Position numbers and translations under genes: made by a program
NCBI GenBank assembly: GCA_035317825.1
Contig: DATHGB010000011.1
Coordinates: 29,003-93,002, forward strand
Source of the DNA: Candidatus Saccharimonadales bacterium
GTDB taxonomy: Bacteria; Patescibacteriota; Saccharimonadia; Saccharimonadales; Saccharimonadaceae
Direction: 5' to 3'
Length of the DNA: 64,000 nt
In this document: positions 8,083-13,666 of the stretch, one piece after another
Layout of the letters: each line of letters begins with the position of its first letter
How positions within the stretch are numbered: the stretch's first letter is position 1
Notes under the pieces: model-generated
What the model saw: only the letters and a program-made list of their open reading frames with translations
Told to the model about the DNA's origin: nothing
The model's database searches: none

Positions 8083-8427
8083 ATGGGCATTAATAAATTT
8101 GCTAACCAACCAGACGACAGGCCTTTTTTCCATAGTACGGGCTATGCAGACGCTGCACATGGGACGAATCTTGGTTCGACAAGCACTCAATCATTTGCCG
8201 ATAGACACCATATGGAAAGAAACCGTAGTTCGGTAGGTAGATACCGAGACTCTATGATTGCTGGTGGTCCTGGCCAGCAGGAGAGGGAATCACAAATTAC
8301 AGATAATCCAATGCCAGGACGTAGTAGACTGAAAGTTCAGTCACGAAATCCTAGATCAAGCATACCCCCAGTCGCAAGATCTACATTTATTGAGCCTCCT
8401 GCTCGTAAATATAATCCATACGGCTAG
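8083..8427 (+). CDS. Small disordered, basic/polar hypothetical protein
   Basis: This 114-residue protein is rich in Arg, Ser, Pro, Gly and His with few hydrophobics and no recognisable domain, and is probably intrinsically disordered. TATAAT ends 7 nt before the ATG, so it is a leaderless transcript, divergent from tRNA-Gly. The tRNA-His promoter starts right after its stop. Confidence 0.6.
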   Translation: MGINKFANQPDDRPFFHSTGYADAAHGTNLGSTSTQSFADRHHMERNRSSVGRYRDSMIAGGPGQQERESQITDNPMPGRSRLKVQSRNPRSSIPPVARSTFIEPPARKYNPYG

Positions 8428-8475
8428 TTAAAACTTTTTTTACTCTGTTAACTATGCTACAATTGCATAGTATTT

Positions 8476-8553
8476 GGCGAATGTAGCTCATCTGGTTAGA
8501 GCGCCGGGTTGTGGTTCCGGAGGTAGTGGGTTCAATCCCCATCATTCGCCCCA
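8476..8553 (+). tRNA. tRNA-His (anticodon GUG)
   Basis: The 8-bp acceptor GGCGAATG / CATTCGCC includes the G-1:C73 pair typical of tRNA-His. The anticodon loop is TTGTGGT, the T arm GTGGG-TTCAATC-CCCAT, and the CCA is encoded. A TACAAT promoter box is at 8456-8461. It heads a six-gene cassette array to the right whose sites copy its GCCCCA end. Confidence 0.96.
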
Positions 8554-8571
8554 AGCATAAGCATAATGAAG

Positions 8572-8599
8572 CAGACTTTTTCGGAAGTCTGTTTTTTTA
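8572..8599 (+). terminator. Terminator of tRNA-His
   Basis: Hairpin CAGACTT-TTTCGG-AAGTCTG followed by TTTTTTT. Related GCATAA-plus-hairpin sequences recur after cassette sites H1 and H2. Confidence 0.9.
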
Positions 8600-8654
8600 T
8601 TTGCTGCTTTTCTATCACAAGCCTTCAAAGCCAGAAAGCTGATATACTGCTCTT

Positions 8655-9170
8655 ATGGCAATTAATCATGAACCTGATATCCATCACCTTGTTATGTGTG
8701 CGAACATCTTTATCCGTAAAGATGACAAGTATCTCGTCCTAAGGCGCTCTACCCTCAAACGCTGGGCGGCGGGCGTCGTTCATCCTGTTGGTGGAAAAAT
8801 AGACTTGAATGAAGACCCTTTAACAGCAGCCAAACGTGAAGCGTTTGAGGAAACTGGCGTAACCGTCAGAAATCTTAAATTAGAAGCTGTTATTTTCGAA
8901 GTTGAGCCAGTTAAGGCCGAGCCTGGCAACTGGATGATCTTCCATTTTAGTGGTGAATATGATTCTGGTGAAGTTATGCAGACAGAAGAAGGTGAATTAG
9001 TTTGGTTGACAGAAAATGAAATCAAGCAAGAAAAGCTATTTCCATCAGTCCGCGCTATTGTCGATAGAATCTTTGATCCCAATACGAGTACTATTTTTGC
9101 TCGATTCGAGTATAAATCAGATCGCGAACTTGATCCAGAGACTATGGCGATTGAAGCGATGACTCGATAA
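8655..9170 (+). CDS. NUDIX hydrolase
   Basis: This 171-residue protein has a canonical Nudix box, GGKIDLNEDPLTAAKREAFE then ETGV (about residues 47-70). It probably hydrolyses a nucleotide or nucleotide-sugar pyrophosphate; the specificity cannot be read. TATACT ends 6 nt before the ATG, so it is leaderless. It is the first cassette after tRNA-His and is followed 5 nt after its stop by site H1. Confidence 0.92.
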   Translation: MAINHEPDIHHLVMCANIFIRKDDKYLVLRRSTLKRWAAGVVHPVGGKIDLNEDPLTAAKREAFEETGVTVRNLKLEAVIFEVEPVKAEPGNWMIFHFSGEYDSGEVMQTEEGELVWLTENEIKQEKLFPSVRAIVDRIFDPNTSTIFARFEYKSDRELDPETMAIEAMTR

Positions 9171-9175
9171 AATAA

Positions 9176-9204
9176 GTTCGAACATCCCTCACTATCTCGC
9201 CCCA
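9176..9204 (+). repeat. tRNA-His-type 29-nt cassette site (H1)
   Basis: GTTCGAAC, ATCCCTCACTATC, TCGCCCCA. The following GGGCATAA and TTCGG hairpin parallel the sequence after tRNA-His. Confidence 0.92.
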
Positions 9205-9214
9205 GGGCATAATT

Positions 9215-9239
9215 AAAAAGATCTCTTCGGGGTCTTTTT
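9215..9239 (+). terminator. Terminator after the NUDIX cassette
   Basis: AAAAAGATCTC-TTCG-GGGTCTTTTT, a short hairpin with a U tract that is a diverged copy of the tRNA-His terminator. Confidence 0.8.
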
Positions 9240-9253
9240 GTTATTATAAATAC

Positions 9254-9514
9254 ATGCCTAAGTCGAAGCCCCTCGAAGAAATACTAGATAACTGGAAAGA
9301 GTTTGCGCGCCCTAGAAACGGTCAGCGTTTTCAACACTACAAAGGCGGGATCTACGAAGTGGTAGCGACGGGATTCATAGAGAACAGTGAATTACCGTGC
9401 GTAGTTTATCGTTCGCTGAAGAAGAATATCGTTTGGGTAAGGACAGCAGAAGATTTTCTTGAACTAATAGAGGACAACGGCGTCACGAAACCGCGCTTCA
9501 AGCCTTTGGCCTAA
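9254..9514 (+). CDS. DUF1653-like small protein
   Basis: This 86-residue protein contains the DUF1653 signature FQHYKGGIYEVVATGFIENS, then PCVVYRSLKKNIVWVRTAEDF (about residues 27-69), a small SH3-like beta barrel of unknown function that is often found beside NUDIX or deaminase genes. TATTAT ends 6 nt before the ATG (leaderless). It is the second cassette of the tRNA-His array. Confidence 0.82.
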   Translation: MPKSKPLEEILDNWKEFARPRNGQRFQHYKGGIYEVVATGFIENSELPCVVYRSLKKNIVWVRTAEDFLELIEDNGVTKPRFKPLA

Positions 9515-9534
9515 CGTTATAATCAATAGTAACA

Positions 9535-9570
9535 GTTCGAACATGAACAATCTTTCACTATCCCAGCCCA
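9535..9570 (+). repeat. tRNA-His-type cassette site (H2), with a 7-nt insertion
   Basis: GTTCGAACAT, an extra 7 nt, then CTTTCACTATCC and CAGCCCA. The next bases AGCATAATGA match those right after tRNA-His. Confidence 0.8.
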
Positions 9571-9582
9571 AGCATAATGAGA

Positions 9583-9613
9583 AGGGACTTCTATTTGGAA
9601 GTCTCTTTATTTT
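9583..9613. terminator. Bidirectional terminator
   Basis: GGGACTTC-TATTT-GGAAGTCTC with a U tract on the plus strand. The stop codon of the minus-strand HD gene lies inside the hairpin. Confidence 0.8.
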
Positions 9614-10214
9614 GATGAAAGAAGCCAGGATGAGCATCAAGTAAATCTCTCACTTCATTATAGTACTTCCCAACCGCAGGATAACTCTGTGCTTTTGCGC
9701 GGTGAGTTTCAAGACTCTTGTTGTAATCCTCGAGTGTGACTTTTCGCTCACGGAACAACTTGCCTTCGTCGATATAATCATAAGTAACCGCAATGTACTT
9801 ATCTAAGGCATACACAAATCTAGCTTCATCTGTGTCTTTACGCTCATACGCTTCAATGGTTCGAATAATCCATGGAAAATGAGCAAATTCTTCAGCGATG
9901 GTAAGCATTGCTTGTTCTTCACGCTGATCTTTCGTCGCTAGTTCGGCTTCACTTGCAAAAGCAGACGTGTCATTGGCATAGACCTCCACGACATCGTGGG
10001 CAACCGCAAATTGACAAATCTTACCTACATCTAAAGTCGGGTCTATTTCATGAGCTAGACTGCACGCTAACATAGCTACAGACCAAGAATGTTCTGCATC
10101 ATTTTCCCATCGACGCTCTCCGATAGGTAGGGGCATATCGCGCTTTATATGGTAAAAAGGCAGAACTATATTTTTCAGCAGGTGTTCGATTTGGCTATGG
10201 GTAGGCTTGGGCAT
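9591..10214 (-). CDS. HD-domain phosphohydrolase (YfbR-like)
   Basis: This protein of about 207 residues shows an HD signature: ENDAEHSWSVAMLACSL (His and metal ligands, about residues 37-53) and FAVAHDVVEVYANDTSAF (HD, about residues 75-92). Relatives are 5'-deoxynucleotidases or other phosphohydrolases acting on nucleotides. The start MPKPTHSQ at 10212-10214 is preferred because TATACT ends 6 nt before it; a start 21 nt upstream would lie in the promoter. It is the only inverted gene in the tRNA-His array. Confidence 0.87.
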   Translation of the reverse strand: MPKPTHSQIEHLLKNIVLPFYHIKRDMPLPIGERRWENDAEHSWSVAMLACSLAHEIDPTLDVGKICQFAVAHDVVEVYANDTSAFASEAELATKDQREEQAMLTIAEEFAHFPWIIRTIEAYERKDTDEARFVYALDKYIAVTYDYIDEGKLFRERKVTLEDYNKSLETHRAKAQSYPAVGKYYNEVRDLLDAHPGFFHQNKETSK

Positions 10215-10263
10215 GTGTATAGTATATAAGCTCAATACTTTTTAATGAAGATTAATGAGAATA

Positions 10264-10292
10264 GTTCGAACATCTGTTACTATCCCGCCCCA
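10264..10292 (+). repeat. tRNA-His-type 29-nt cassette site (H3)
   Basis: GTTCGAAC, ATCTGTTACTATCC, CGCCCCA, followed by TAGAGGTTATGC and a hairpin, as in H5. Confidence 0.92.
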
Positions 10293-10306
10293 TAGAGGTT
10301 ATGCCT

Positions 10307-10330
10307 AAAAGACACCGTTTGGTGTCTTTT
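10307..10330 (+). terminator. Terminator in the tRNA-His array
   Basis: AAAAGACACC-GTTT-GGTGTCTTTT, a near-perfect hairpin. It is directly followed by the promoter of the next cassette. Confidence 0.88.
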
Positions 10331-10350
10331 AGTTTGCTATACTATTACTT

Positions 10351-10743
10351 ATGATTAATGTGCCTGATACTACTACTGTAAATATGTCTGAATTTAAGCC
10401 AGATGCACATAGCATCGCGTTCGCTCCTGAGCTTATACAATTCATTAAAGACAATCAAAAACTCACAACGTATCGTTTTGGCAAAAAATACGATCATTTT
10501 AAAGTTGGCGATGTAGTAAATTACCAAAATTCCGAAACAGGAGAAATAGTTGGCAAGCTTCGTATCGCTAATAAAAAAGAAGAGACATTTGCAACATTAC
10601 CACTAGACAACCCTACACACGAAGCGTATCGAGATAAAGAGCATCAGCGCCAAGTCCTTTCTGGTTATTACGCGTACATCGGTCGGGAGGTTACTGATGA
10701 TGATTCTTTTCTCATTTTCGACTTTACTCTCGCCACTAATTAA
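10351..10743 (+). CDS. ASCH-like (PUA-fold) domain protein
   Basis: In this 130-residue protein the segment TTYRFGKKYDHFKVGDVVNY (about residues 36-55) and GKLRIANKKEETFATLPLD resemble ASCH domains, which are PUA-like RNA or nucleotide-binding folds. It may bind RNA or a modified nucleotide; no catalytic residue is evident. TATACT ends 7 nt before the ATG (leaderless). It is the fourth cassette. Confidence 0.7.
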   Translation: MINVPDTTTVNMSEFKPDAHSIAFAPELIQFIKDNQKLTTYRFGKKYDHFKVGDVVNYQNSETGEIVGKLRIANKKEETFATLPLDNPTHEAYRDKEHQRQVLSGYYAYIGREVTDDDSFLIFDFTLATN

Positions 10744-10779
10744 CGACTTTCTGTGTTAAAACTTGAGTCGATCAGTGTA

Positions 10780-10808
10780 GTTCGAACATCCCTTACTATC
10801 CTATATAG
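10780..10808 (+). repeat. tRNA-His-type 29-nt cassette site (H4)
   Basis: GTTCGAAC, ATCCCTTACTATCC are intact. The tRNA-like 3' end has changed to TATATAG and no good terminator follows. Confidence 0.85.
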
Positions 10809-10854
10809 GCAAAGATATTGACCCTACTTCAAAGAGGCGCATAATGGATAGTAT

Positions 10855-11079
10855 ATGAGCGAAGATCAATTTACAAAACTATTCAAGTATATGCAGACCG
10901 AGTTTGAAAGTACTCGTAGTGATCTTCAAAAGGTGCGTCAAGACGTACAGCGTGTTTATGAGGTTGTTGACGGCGATACCCATCAAAGAGAAAAAGATGA
11001 TCACGAACGTGCTGCACTTAGTTTACAAATTGATCGACTTGAAAAACGAATTGCTACGCTCGAGAAGAAACTCGCCTAA
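10855..11079 (+). CDS. Small coiled-coil protein
   Basis: This 74-residue, highly charged protein has heptad patterning throughout (STRSDLQKVRQDVQRVYEVV and SLQIDRLEKRIATLEKKLA), so it is probably a coiled-coil oligomer. The function is unknown. A CATAAT box ends 9 nt before the ATG. It is the fifth cassette of the array. Confidence 0.65.
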   Translation: MSEDQFTKLFKYMQTEFESTRSDLQKVRQDVQRVYEVVDGDTHQREKDDHERAALSLQIDRLEKRIATLEKKLA

Positions 11080-11084
11080 TACTG

Positions 11085-11113
11085 GTTCGAACATCCCTCA
11101 CTATCCTGCCTCA
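11085..11113 (+). repeat. tRNA-His-type 29-nt cassette site (H5)
   Basis: GTTCGAAC, ATCCCTCACTATCC, TGCCTCA. It begins 6 nt after the stop of the coiled-coil gene and is followed by TAGAGGTTATGC as in H3. Confidence 0.92.
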
Positions 11114-11127
11114 TAGAGGTTATGCTT

Positions 11128-11160
11128 AAAAAGACACTGTTACAGTGTCTTTTTAATTTT
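11128..11160 (+). terminator. Terminator in the tRNA-His array
   Basis: AAAAAGACACTG-TTA-CAGTGTCTTTTT then AATTTT: a strong hairpin immediately upstream of the next promoter. Confidence 0.9.
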
Positions 11161-11174
11161 GGTATGATAGCTAC

Positions 11175-11678
11175 ATGAAATGGATCGGAATAACTGGCTC
11201 ATGGCGAAAATCAAGCCCAGAAATGGAGGCAGATTTAAAACGTGAAGTTACCGCCGTTTTGCAAAACGGTGCGGGTATTGTGGCTGGTGGAGCACTAGGC
11301 GTAGACTACCTCGCAACGGAGTTAGCATTAATACACGCTCCTGATGGGTCGCGATTGAAGATATTCTTGCCAACCTCCCTTGACATGTACATAGCTCATT
11401 ATCGTAAGCGAGCCAAAGAGGGCGTCATAACGGTAGATCAGTCGGAAGCATTAATTCAACAACTTATGACAGTAGACAAACTTGGATCTCTAATTTCTAA
11501 TCTCGACCAAACTGAACCCAATGAAAAAACATACTTCCTACGAAATACCGAAGTGATAAATGCAAGCGACGAAATACTTGCGTTCCAAATCAACGCCAGT
11601 GCAGGCACGCAAGACACAATAGATAAGGCGCGACAACGTGGAATTCCTGTCGAAGTATTCACCTATACAGTAGAGTAG
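11175..11678 (+). CDS. SLOG/DprA-like Rossmann-fold nucleotide-binding protein
   Basis: In this 167-residue protein MKWIGITGSWRKSSPEME and then GAGIVAGGALGVDYLATELAL (about residues 32-52) resemble the SLOG superfamily (LOG, DprA, YpsA), whose GG-GxD motif binds nucleotide ligands. The C-terminal INASDEILAFQINASAGTQDTIDKA also fits. Proposed roles in the superfamily include sensing nucleotide signals or nucleoside phosphoribohydrolase activity. TATGAT ends 6 nt before the ATG (leaderless). It is the sixth and last cassette. Confidence 0.82.
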   Translation: MKWIGITGSWRKSSPEMEADLKREVTAVLQNGAGIVAGGALGVDYLATELALIHAPDGSRLKIFLPTSLDMYIAHYRKRAKEGVITVDQSEALIQQLMTVDKLGSLISNLDQTEPNEKTYFLRNTEVINASDEILAFQINASAGTQDTIDKARQRGIPVEVFTYTVE

Positions 11679-11680
11679 CA

Positions 11681-11709
11681 GTTCGAACATCCCTCACTAT
11701 CCGGCTCTA
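11681..11709 (+). repeat. tRNA-His-type 29-nt cassette site (H6), distal end of the array
   Basis: GTTCGAAC, ATCCCTCACTATCC, GGCTCTA. Beyond it lies the murA-VOC operon, probably the original chromosome downstream of tRNA-His. Confidence 0.9.
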
Positions 11710-11718
11710 AGGTATCAT

Positions 11719-11752
11719 AAAAAGGAATGCTTTATACATTTCTTTTATTTTT
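11719..11752. terminator. Convergent terminator
   Basis: AAAGGAATG-CTTTATA-CATTTCTTTT, a 9-bp imperfect stem between the convergent SLOG and VOC genes. A and T tracts on both sides suggest it acts in both directions. Confidence 0.65.
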
Positions 11753-12131
11753 CATAAACCTCAATCGGCAAATCATCCGGATCAAAGAAGAAAATAGTCT
11801 TCTTATTCGTGTATGGATCGTTTTGAAGCCTAGTCGTTTTTATATTTTTGCTTTGTAATTCCTTTAGGACTGCTTCAACATCATCAACTTCAAAGGCTAT
11901 ATGGCGAAGACCAGTTGCTTCGGGATAAGTAGGACGCAAGGGCGGATTTGGGAATGAGAAAAGCTCTAATAGGTATTCGCCGTTGATAGCAAGATCAAGC
12001 TTATATGAGTCTCGTTCTTTTCTGTAATATTCGTCCAAGATCGTAGCGCCTACAATATCTGTATAGAAGGCTTTTGACTTCTCGTAATCCGATGCAATGA
12101 TCGCAATATGATGAACTTTATTAATTTTCAC
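11745..12131 (-). CDS. VOC/glyoxalase family metalloenzyme
   Basis: This 128-residue protein has the VOC fold with plausible metal ligands: His in INKVHHIAI (N-terminus), Glu in YLLELFSFP, His in LRHIAFEVDD and Glu in LPIEVYEK at the C-terminus. It resembles the YaeR/GloA2 group; the substrate (methylglyoxal adduct or other) is uncertain. The start is GTG at 12129-12131, 2 nt after the murA stop, so it is co-transcribed with murA and is probably not part of the cassette array. Confidence 0.87.
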   Translation of the reverse strand: MKINKVHHIAIIASDYEKSKAFYTDIVGATILDEYYRKERDSYKLDLAINGEYLLELFSFPNPPLRPTYPEATGLRHIAFEVDDVEAVLKELQSKNIKTTRLQNDPYTNKKTIFFFDPDDLPIEVYEK

Positions 12132-12133
12132 CG

Positions 12134-13666
12134 TTAGATTTCTCGAATAGTTTCGATTTCAGCACCAAGTGCGTTGAGCCGATTTGCAAAATCTTCGTAT
12201 CCGCGGTTGATCGAATAAACGTCACGCAGGATCGATCGGCCAGGCGCGGCAAGCATGGCAAGCAAAATAACGACCGATGGACGAAGTGCGGGCGGGGCAA
12301 CCACATCTGCGGGTTTCCATTTTGTTGGGCCGTGAATAAATACACGGTGCGGGTCGACAAGTTCAATATGCGCGTTTAGCTTTGTGAGTTCGGTAAAGTA
12401 AATCGCGCGGTTTTCGTATGACCAGTCGTGCACTAGCGTGCGGCCATGAGCTTTGGTTGCGATCAAACCCAGGAAAGGAAGGTTATCCATATTCACACCA
12501 GGAAAGGGCATGCTGTGGAGCTTATCTTTTGGAGCATGAAGGACAGAACGTTTGATGCTGATATCAACGAGACGAGACTGTCCGTTTCGGGCTTTGTACT
12601 CATCAGTTAATTCAAACTGCAAGCCCATGCCGGAAAGTATTGCCAACTCCAGTTCGATGAATTCGATTGGTGCGCGCTGGATAGTAATTTCAGAATCAGT
12701 GACAACGGCTGCAGCTACAAGGCTCATTGCTTCGATAGGGTCTTCGCTTGGGCAGTACTCGACGTCTTTATTGATGCTTTTGACACCCTTAATCTTTAGA
12801 ATTGTCGTGCCGATTCCTTCAATCTTGACACCGAGTTTTTCTAGGAAGAAACAAACGTCCTGCACCATATAGTTTGGGCTGGCGTTACGGATAGTGGTTA
12901 TACCATCGTATAGCGCAGCAGCCATAATGACATTTTCGGTAACCGTGTCACCACGTTCGGTAAGGAGGATCGTCTTCTCGATCTTTTTTTCATGAACAGT
13001 AGCATGGTAGTAGTCGGTGTTTGGCTTTGCTTCAACACTTAGTCCAAATGGCGCTAAACCGACCATGTGGGGTTCGACCGTACGTGTGCCAAGGTTACAT
13101 CCGCCGGCAAACGGTAGCTTAAAATCGTCGTATTGATGCAAGAGCGGGCCAAGGAACATGATAACGGTACGAGTTCGCTTCGCGGCTTTGATGTCCATTT
13201 TATCTAACTGAAGTCGCTTTGGCGGAATAATTTCTAGATCGTTATTTTTAAGCCAGCGAACTTTTACGCCAATACTTTGAAGTACTTCGATAATGCGGTT
13301 AACTTCTTCAATACGTGCAACTCGGCGAAGGGTCGTTTTGCCTTTGTTTAAAAGCGCGGCACATAGTAAACCGACAGCCGCGTTCTTGCTCGTTTTAACT
13401 TCAATACTACCCGATAGCTTTTTGCCACCGTGTATGCGAAGGTTAATTTTACCTGACTTATTAAGGCTGACGATCTCACTAGAGAGGACTTCGCTGATTC
13501 TGGCTATCATCTCAAGGCTGATATTTTGTCCACCCTTTTCGATACGGTTAATAGCACTTTGGCTGGTGCCAAGCGCTTCGGCCAGCTGGGCTTGGGTGTA
13601 ACCCCTTGACTGACGTATTTCTTGAATTAAATCACCGATTTTGTCTAGGTAGGTGTCAGTTTGCAT
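12134..13666 (-). CDS. murA: UDP-GlcNAc enolpyruvyl transferase MurA with N-terminal XRE-type HTH
   Basis: This 510-residue protein catalyses the first committed step of peptidoglycan synthesis (PEP + UDP-GlcNAc). Residues about 9-65 form a Cro/C1-type HTH (GYTQAQLAEALGTSQSAINR). After a short linker the MurA part begins at about residue 75. TSKNAAVGLL carries the Lys-Asn substrate pair. FAGGCNLGTRTVEPHMVG keeps the catalytic Cys, so fosfomycin sensitivity would be expected. The normal length is about 420. The HTH may regulate its own or other wall genes, or may have become structural. A VOC gene follows in the operon. Confidence 0.93.
   Translation of the reverse strand: MQTDTYLDKIGDLIQEIRQSRGYTQAQLAEALGTSQSAINRIEKGGQNISLEMIARISEVLSSEIVSLNKSGKINLRIHGGKKLSGSIEVKTSKNAAVGLLCAALLNKGKTTLRRVARIEEVNRIIEVLQSIGVKVRWLKNNDLEIIPPKRLQLDKMDIKAAKRTRTVIMFLGPLLHQYDDFKLPFAGGCNLGTRTVEPHMVGLAPFGLSVEAKPNTDYYHATVHEKKIEKTILLTERGDTVTENVIMAAALYDGITTIRNASPNYMVQDVCFFLEKLGVKIEGIGTTILKIKGVKSINKDVEYCPSEDPIEAMSLVAAAVVTDSEITIQRAPIEFIELELAILSGMGLQFELTDEYKARNGQSRLVDISIKRSVLHAPKDKLHSMPFPGVNMDNLPFLGLIATKAHGRTLVHDWSYENRAIYFTELTKLNAHIELVDPHRVFIHGPTKWKPADVVAPPALRPSVVILLAMLAAPGRSILRDVYSINRGYEDFANRLNALGAEIETIREI

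Follow-up and report, generated by a model that had tools for sequence, protein, structure and literature searches.

The question raised by this locus is why a histidine tRNA gene should be followed by six small genes, each closed by a short site that ends like the tRNA itself. The locus lies in a stretch of 64,000 nucleotides (nt) from Candidatus Saccharimonadales bacterium (contig DATHGB010000011.1, positions 29,003 to 93,002), here called the window. The answer we hold to be likely is a system of single-gene cassettes, driven by a serine recombinase and anchored on tRNA genes, which is integron-like without being an integron. The finding is real and much wider than the window. The initial annotation had proposed an integron-like array with a tRNA gene as its founding site; this is supported, as the same tRNAs were found to carry different genes with matching sites. 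The sites, their position after genes, the arrays behind tRNAs, the agreement of two bases between site and tRNA (positions -6 and -5 from the 3' end), the turnover of genes, and the recombinase at array heads are all read directly from the sequences. The parts of the window array are as follows, with the dinucleotide of each site given for positions -6/-5.

8476..8553, + strand: tRNA-His (GTG) with G-1, the anchor and predicted half-site of attB (bacterial attachment site); final 6 nt GCCCCA
8554..8563, + strand: AGCATAAGCA trailer, predicted right arm, cassette-borne
8568..8595, + strand: terminator-like hairpin 3' of tRNA-His
8655..9170, + strand: cassette 1 gene, NUDIX hydrolase, 171 amino acids (aa)
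9176..9204, + strand: site H1, 29 nt, dinucleotide GC
9214..9240, + strand: terminator-like hairpin 3' of H1
9254..9514, + strand: cassette 2 gene, DUF1653, 86 aa
9535..9570, + strand: site H2, 36 nt with a 7-nt insertion, dinucleotide AG, unlike the anchor
9581..9608, + strand: terminator-like hairpin 3' of H2
9591..10214, - strand: cassette 3 gene, HD-domain protein (HD_3, YfbR-like), 207 aa, ATG at 10214
10264..10292, + strand: site H3, 29 nt, dinucleotide GC
10305..10332, + strand: terminator-like hairpin 3' of H3
10351..10743, + strand: cassette 4 gene, ASCH-like, 130 aa
10780..10808, + strand: site H4, 29 nt, degenerate 3' end (TATATAG)
10855..11079, + strand: cassette 5 gene, short coiled-coil-like protein, 74 aa
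11085..11113, + strand: site H5, 29 nt, dinucleotide GC
11126..11156, + strand: terminator-like hairpin 3' of H5
11175..11678, + strand: cassette 6 gene, SLOG/DprA-like (PF02481), 167 aa
11681..11709, + strand: site H6, 29 nt, dinucleotide GC, the final site of the array

All six sites were recovered where the initial annotation had placed them (9176, 9535, 10264, 10780, 11085, and 11681), together with the 7-nt insertion in H2 (9535). Five of the six window sites matched the 22-mer GTTCGAACATCCCTCACTATCC with at most 3 mismatches, compared to none in 100 shuffles, and a search of the own genome (1.116 Mb, 30 contigs) returned the same five sites and none besides. The GC dinucleotide is retained in H1, H3, H5, and H6.

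To judge how far such sites extend, the family pattern was defined as GTTCGAAGTACGTCCACTA followed by N7 and CCA, 29 nt long, with at most 3 mismatches. It matched 57 of 344 genomes of the order, belonging to 37 of 149 genera, and 3 genomes in the backwards control. The own genome counts as one of the 57 because of another locus, a single site behind tRNA-Trp on contig 18. Nine of the 57 were set aside (eight genomes with a doubtful CCA-ending class and G109, in which the hit lies inside an unrelated open reading frame, ORF), leaving 48 in use. His-type and consensus sites have the same length, CCA end, and placement relative to the anchor. A second kind of array, in G048, follows tRNA-Arg(TCT); its sites, GTTCGAAGTACGTCCACTAACCGGCACCA, are equally long, and this type was matched by six genomes in a search of 60 relatives and by 1 in the backwards control, and in its matches the 7 nt preceding CCA vary with the neighbouring tRNA. 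In the phylum, 6 of 249 genomes matched, five within the own order and one outside it as a single 3-mismatch match, with 2 in the control. The site family therefore looks order-specific. A joint motif, GTTCGAA-N7-YACTAWC, was rejected as a general motif, with 10 of 394 genomes matched against 17 in the backwards control.

The doubtful class that was excluded from the site-positive set comprises GTTTGAAATACGTCAACTATGCTGCACCA and its relatives in eight genomes. The CCA-ending GTTTGAAATACGTCAACTATGCTGCACCA or GTTCGAACTTCGTGCACTATGGTGCACCA is nearly identical across several genera (loci L167, L169, L175, and L176), and in L167 and L175 a terminator-like hairpin appears by eye directly downstream. 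Rfam returned no family at this class, which may represent either a further class of site or a small RNA resembling tRNA.

An exhaustive site finder, run on 61 fetched loci, identified 137 distinct sites in 45 genomes, compared to 1 match by the same rule in 1.15 Mb of reversed sequence. A same-strand tRNA lies at most 13 kb upstream of 105 of these sites, giving 38 anchors: Asn (12), Trp (10), Gln-TTG (7), Gln-CTG (6), Arg (1), Glu (1), and Leu (1), the Glu and Leu anchors being possibly misassigned. The largest array, in G150, has ten sites. Sites follow a same-strand stop codon within 60 nt in 104 of 137 cases, with a median of 11 nt, compared to 445 of 2520 random positions with a stop codon within 60 nt upstream. 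Neighbouring sites are spaced by a median of 680 nt. Exactly one ORF of at least 50 aa is found in 42 of 67 intersite intervals, and 20 of 106 such ORFs are oriented against the array, as is the HD gene of the window. The sequence AGCATAAGC (at most 2 mismatches) occurred directly 3' of 11 of 43 array tRNAs, including tRNA-His of the window, and of 0 of 350 other tRNAs; it also followed 34 of 105 anchored sites, compared to 37 of 24,000 random positions. We read it as a putative right arm brought by incoming cassettes.

Gene content turns over among arrays of the same genus and the same tRNA, 10 of 13 pairs having no common gene at all. Among the others, G482 and G512 have one gene in common (NUDIX-like by eye), G482 and G525 share the recombinase, the replication protein (Rep), and two adjacent small genes (86 and 80% identical), and the one ORF common to G006 and G126 overlaps the tRNA itself.

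The tRNA-His locus was followed through the relatives of the window. Among 295 genomes of the family searched with the window site, the exact site occurred in one other genome (G022, of a different genus, g23) in a single copy: tRNA-His is followed there by one NUDIX gene unlike that of the window and then by one site with the dinucleotide GT. The same site was found in the same place in JAUCSD010000001.1 (Saccharibacteria RYN_404). Three matches to the exact site were obtained in GTDB contigs, namely G022 itself and the loci L008 and L010, which have no tRNA within the pieces fetched. After 80 further tRNA-His loci had been fetched from relatives, His-type sites were present in 1 of 81 relatives (the 80 loci and G022). 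An identical set of six genes in all relatives, which the initial annotation had named as the outcome that would speak for ordinary repeats, was not encountered, as G022 and others carry different genes. Within window 8083-13666, a comparison with G022 shows the segment with tRNA-His and the array to be inverted with respect to murA and ORF 8083/tRNA-Gly; the order downstream of tRNA-His in G028 and G036 is that of G022. By eye, the flank of H3 resembles the trailer directly 3' of tRNA-His in G028 (L059), and the flank of H5 resembles the one in G036.

Other genes occur between tRNA-His and the conserved ORF/tRNA-Gly in L059 (G028) and L060 (G036), without recognisable sites; by eye they encode a third NUDIX-like protein and an acyltransferase-like protein. 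On the minus strand of L047 (G078), a roughly 50-nt repeat that includes a small hairpin (ATTTCGATGTGCCATAGAAATGGTACGG...) occurs three times, at distances of about 2.1, 4.2, and 5.8 kb on the downstream side of tRNA-His; in two cases it immediately follows a reverse-strand gene. This is possibly an unrelated cassette-like repeat.

How site and tRNA are linked was examined by covariation, with one site per anchor (38 anchors) compared to 2000 anchor shuffles and with a finder that ignores the tested bases. Counted from the 3' end, agreement between site and anchor reached 0.87 at position -6 and 0.92 at position -5, compared to 0.41 and 0.52 in the shuffles, respectively (0 of 2000 in both cases). 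At position -4 the agreement was weak (84 of 2000 shuffles), and CCA is common to nearly all. Positions -7 to -12 showed no comparable excess, the best of them being equalled in 134 of 2000 shuffles. With the His sites counted in, the dinucleotide of site and anchor is identical in 91 of 112 cases. Eight genomes have anchors that differ in their dinucleotide, and there the sites matched their own anchor in 40 cases, another anchor in 2, and neither in 10.

A second line of evidence comes from the geometry of serine integrases. The left 22 nt of the site had been taken for the T-arm of tRNA-His, which they are not, since the distance to the 3' end is 24 nt for GTTCRA in 281 of 293 tRNAs and 29 nt for GTTCGA in the sites. 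In the model of the Listeria integrase (PMC3783163), the zinc-ribbon motif occupies positions 16-24 from the crossover in attP (the phage attachment site) and 11-19 in attB. The further systems compared there can, with one exception, be read with the same 5-bp offset between attP and attB. If GTTCGA is the zinc-ribbon motif, its distances of 24 and 29 nt would place crossover position 1 at -6 in both partners. We infer from this that the central dinucleotide is -6/-5, the covarying pair. Two mutually independent lines, covariation and integrase geometry, thus point to the same two bases.

The initial annotation had looked to a tyrosine recombinase as the mover of the cassettes. This was not borne out, and a large serine recombinase is predicted instead, as such an enzyme sits at array heads. 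In G150 and G482, the gene for an enzyme of one subfamily separates the anchor tRNA from the first site and is convergent with this tRNA; its final codons are read from the opposite strand of the tRNA, and a Rep-like gene adjoins it (PF23343 in G150). The G150 enzyme carries PF00239 and PF07508 above the cut-off, and PF13408 reaches 23.6 bits against a cut-off of 25.3. A search of 80 genomes (48 site-positive and 32 site-negative) with the G150 query identified nine close relatives with more than 430 bits and 44-47% identity (G070, G404, G422, G023, G046, G485, G525, G482, and G078). For eight of the ten close recombinases, a site lies at most 10 kb away on the same contig and on the opposite strand, compared to a rough chance expectation of 0.12 in 10. 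The 3' end of the recombinase gene overlaps the anchor tRNA in G150, G482, G422, and G525 and a tRNA in G070, G078, G404, and G023; these are the eight loci where a tRNA could be placed, G046 and G485 standing outside the count. Recombinase and Rep are the sole genes of the G150 array that were found in the G482 and G525 arrays. Best among the matches listed, relatives of the recombinase on plasmids and phages are about 30-31% identical and those in viral contigs 32%, and solved structures gave short resolvase-domain matches only.

Other large serine recombinases end opposite or beside tRNA-Trp, tRNA-Gly, or tRNA-Lys in seven loci (L281, L288, L289, L291, L295, L296, and L079), mostly without nearby consensus sites. 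Serine recombinases of the order seem to target tRNA 3' ends often.

In the mechanism that we propose, the 3' end of the tRNA would serve as attB, with GTTCGA of the T-loop as the zinc-ribbon motif, and each site would represent the P side of attP, in which this motif lies another 5 bp outwards. The recombinase would bind both the T-loop of the tRNA and the site, and strands would be exchanged at the -6/-5 dinucleotide. An incoming cassette would provide the last bases of the tRNA, which would be rebuilt and functional, and the previous tRNA end would be pushed downstream behind the new gene. Such a displacement would explain the resemblance of each site's end to that of its anchor tRNA. Cassettes lacking a recombinase would depend on elements encoding recombinase and replication protein to move them in trans. 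We lean, with less assurance than for the cassette system as such, towards a 'serine integron', in which the near-invariant T-loop and the 3' end of tRNA genes act as the platform, two bases suffice for retargeting between tRNAs, and the cassettes are satellites of recombinase-plus-Rep elements.

Several observations weigh against this reading. Excision and insertion themselves are what we infer from the sequences. The arm of the His-type site in the window agrees with the consensus arm at only 12 or 13 of 19 bases, H2 and H4 lack the dinucleotide of the anchor, and 32 of the 137 sites have no upstream tRNA in the piece fetched. The covariation shuffles leave kinship uncorrected. The right half of the site shows by eye no clear inverted copy of the left, and two of the inferred dinucleotides are palindromic, TA for Gln-TTG and GC for His and Arg, which should weaken the control of orientation. 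No site was found in viral contigs with three exact patterns. G482 and G525 have two cassette genes in common besides recombinase and Rep. Any serine recombinase at all is present in 14 of 18 array genomes and 13 of 16 others and so does not track the arrays; the close subfamily occurs in only 8 of 48 site-positive genomes and also in 2 of 32 site-negative ones (G404 and G023, whose recombinases have no detected site). In the own genome the nearest relative of the G150 enzyme is 26% identical, and no recombinase is tied to either His array (window and G022), the own serine recombinases lying on contigs C9 and C20, apart from the His array. With 40 of 48 site-positive genomes lacking the subfamily and the own enzyme at 26%, most arrays would be static or reliant on a visiting element. 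The window array may likewise be a relic or static, since its genome has no close relative of the recombinase, and its continued activity is doubtful.

The alternative that survives best is tandem accretion, in which whole recombinase elements inserted serially at the tRNA and decayed, so that the sites are leftover attR (right attachment site) ends and the cassettes were never mobile alone. Recombinase-Rep elements do head some arrays, and some intervals are long with several ORFs (up to 7). Most intervals, however, are short with a single ORF, the sites lie close behind stop codons, and the ten sites of G150 stand behind the one recombinase found there. We regard accretion as unlikely.

A still smaller chance is given to a Xer-type tyrosine recombinase that moves the cassettes as in an integron or a pdif module. 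A PF00589 enzyme of Xer-like score and size is present in each of the 34 genomes surveyed and is the only one in the own genome, but it is equally present without arrays, and a second PF00589 enzyme is found in 4 of the 18 genomes with arrays and in 5 of the 16 without. The models that fit the own enzyme best are XerD/XerC, and it stays under the cut-off for integron integrases. The 31 xer loci contain no site, and the 300-nt flanks of the 31 xer genes have no 10-mer common to more than 5 loci. It is a serine recombinase that stands at array heads, and a covariation limited to 2 bp fits the overlap of serine recombinases.

Ordinary intergenic repeats or transcription-termination elements that lie after genes by chance are highly improbable. 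Terminator-like hairpins are indeed enriched in the array region (8 compared to 2.4 in shuffles) and follow the tRNA and four of the six window sites (H1, H2, H3, and H5), but none was found 3' of H4 and H6, and the tRNA anchoring, the -6/-5 covariation, and the recombinase at array heads would be left unexplained. A role at the RNA level, as tRNA-like 3' ends for mRNA processing or protection, is hardly credible: the sites end in CCA and contain the T-loop-like GTTCGAA, but no conserved upstream 5' T-stem partner is visible by eye, none of the 8 single-strand folds is better than shuffles (DNA parameters), Rfam finds the tRNA alone in window 8400-11800 and tRNA alone in three array loci, and H3 is preceded by a reverse-strand gene.

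For the cargo of the window array, Pfam confirmed the NUDIX, DUF1653, HD (minus strand), and SLOG/DprA-like assignments made earlier. The cassette 4 protein has no Pfam match of its own; PF04266, the ASCH domain, was found in 2 of its 43 homologues, and one homologue is named ASCH by its source. For the cassette 5 protein, all Pfam coiled-coil matches are under the cut-off. PADLOC gave weak matches only, for cassettes 1 and 6. The suggestion that each gene has its own promoter found no support, with 6 promoter-like sites compared to 7.3 in shuffles.

Gene cassettes are known as the domain of integrons, in which a tyrosine recombinase acts on folding sites. No description of a system such as the present one was found in listings of the open-licence PubMed Central literature. 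If true, a second, independent solution to the cassette problem, built on a serine recombinase and tRNA ends, has spread through an order. It would also be a route by which host-bound bacteria with genomes near 1 Mb gain NUDIX, HD, ASCH, and SLOG genes, and a natural serine recombinase retargeted by two bases would be testable and useful for genome engineering. The site is a marker for collecting cassette genes at scale.

With integrons, the arrays share tandem single-gene cassettes that each have a short site close behind the stop codon, a single fixed anchor on the chromosome, turnover of genes, and a recombinase gene that may head the array. Single-gene cassettes with a site after the gene were indeed found behind one anchor. 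Unlike in integrons, the recombinase would be a serine instead of a tyrosine enzyme, the anchors are the 3' ends of several tRNA genes, and the sites are 29 nt long and non-folding, with the specificity apparently in two tRNA bases. No IntI-type integrase was found in the own genome, whose Xer-like enzyme reaches 135 bits compared to the integron-integrase cut-off of 265 bits; a second PF00589 enzyme is lacking in 14 of 18 array genomes and present in the other four. Folding like that of attC was likewise absent: 6 sites, of which 2 were folded on both strands, gave 8 folds, none of them better than shuffles (z from -0.15 to 1.67).

The staphylococcal and Enterococcus cassette chromosomes (SCC/ECC, moved by Ccr) resemble the arrays in their enzyme class (large serine recombinases), in having the 3' end of a conserved gene as the place of insertion, and in attachment sites that can stand in a row (PMC6222049). 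Their target is rlmH and ECCs average 42 kb according to the same source, whereas mostly single genes stand behind tRNAs here, and the pair ccrAB is replaced by one recombinase at the array head. Neither insertion in rlmH nor a ccrA/ccrB pair was found. The best NCBIfam matches of the G150 enzyme are XisF and CcrB, far below the cut-off (69 compared to 900 bits for CcrB). The A118/Listeria integrase and phiC31 have the same domain order, and their zinc-ribbon motif moves by the same 5 bp from attP to attB. The arrays agree with large serine recombinases in the domains (G150), in the 5-bp offset if GTTCGA is the motif, and in the common dinucleotide; in the window's genome no such enzyme is linked to the His array. 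Phages with serine integrases insert one autonomous element, whereas many units without a recombinase use common sites here.

Tandem genomic islands at tRNA genes are formed by tyrosine integrases that target the tRNA 3' end, rebuild the tRNA, and let the island grow in tandem. The arrays have this target, rebuilding of the tRNA, and tandem growth in common with them and differ in the class of recombinase and in their units of about 0.7 kb.

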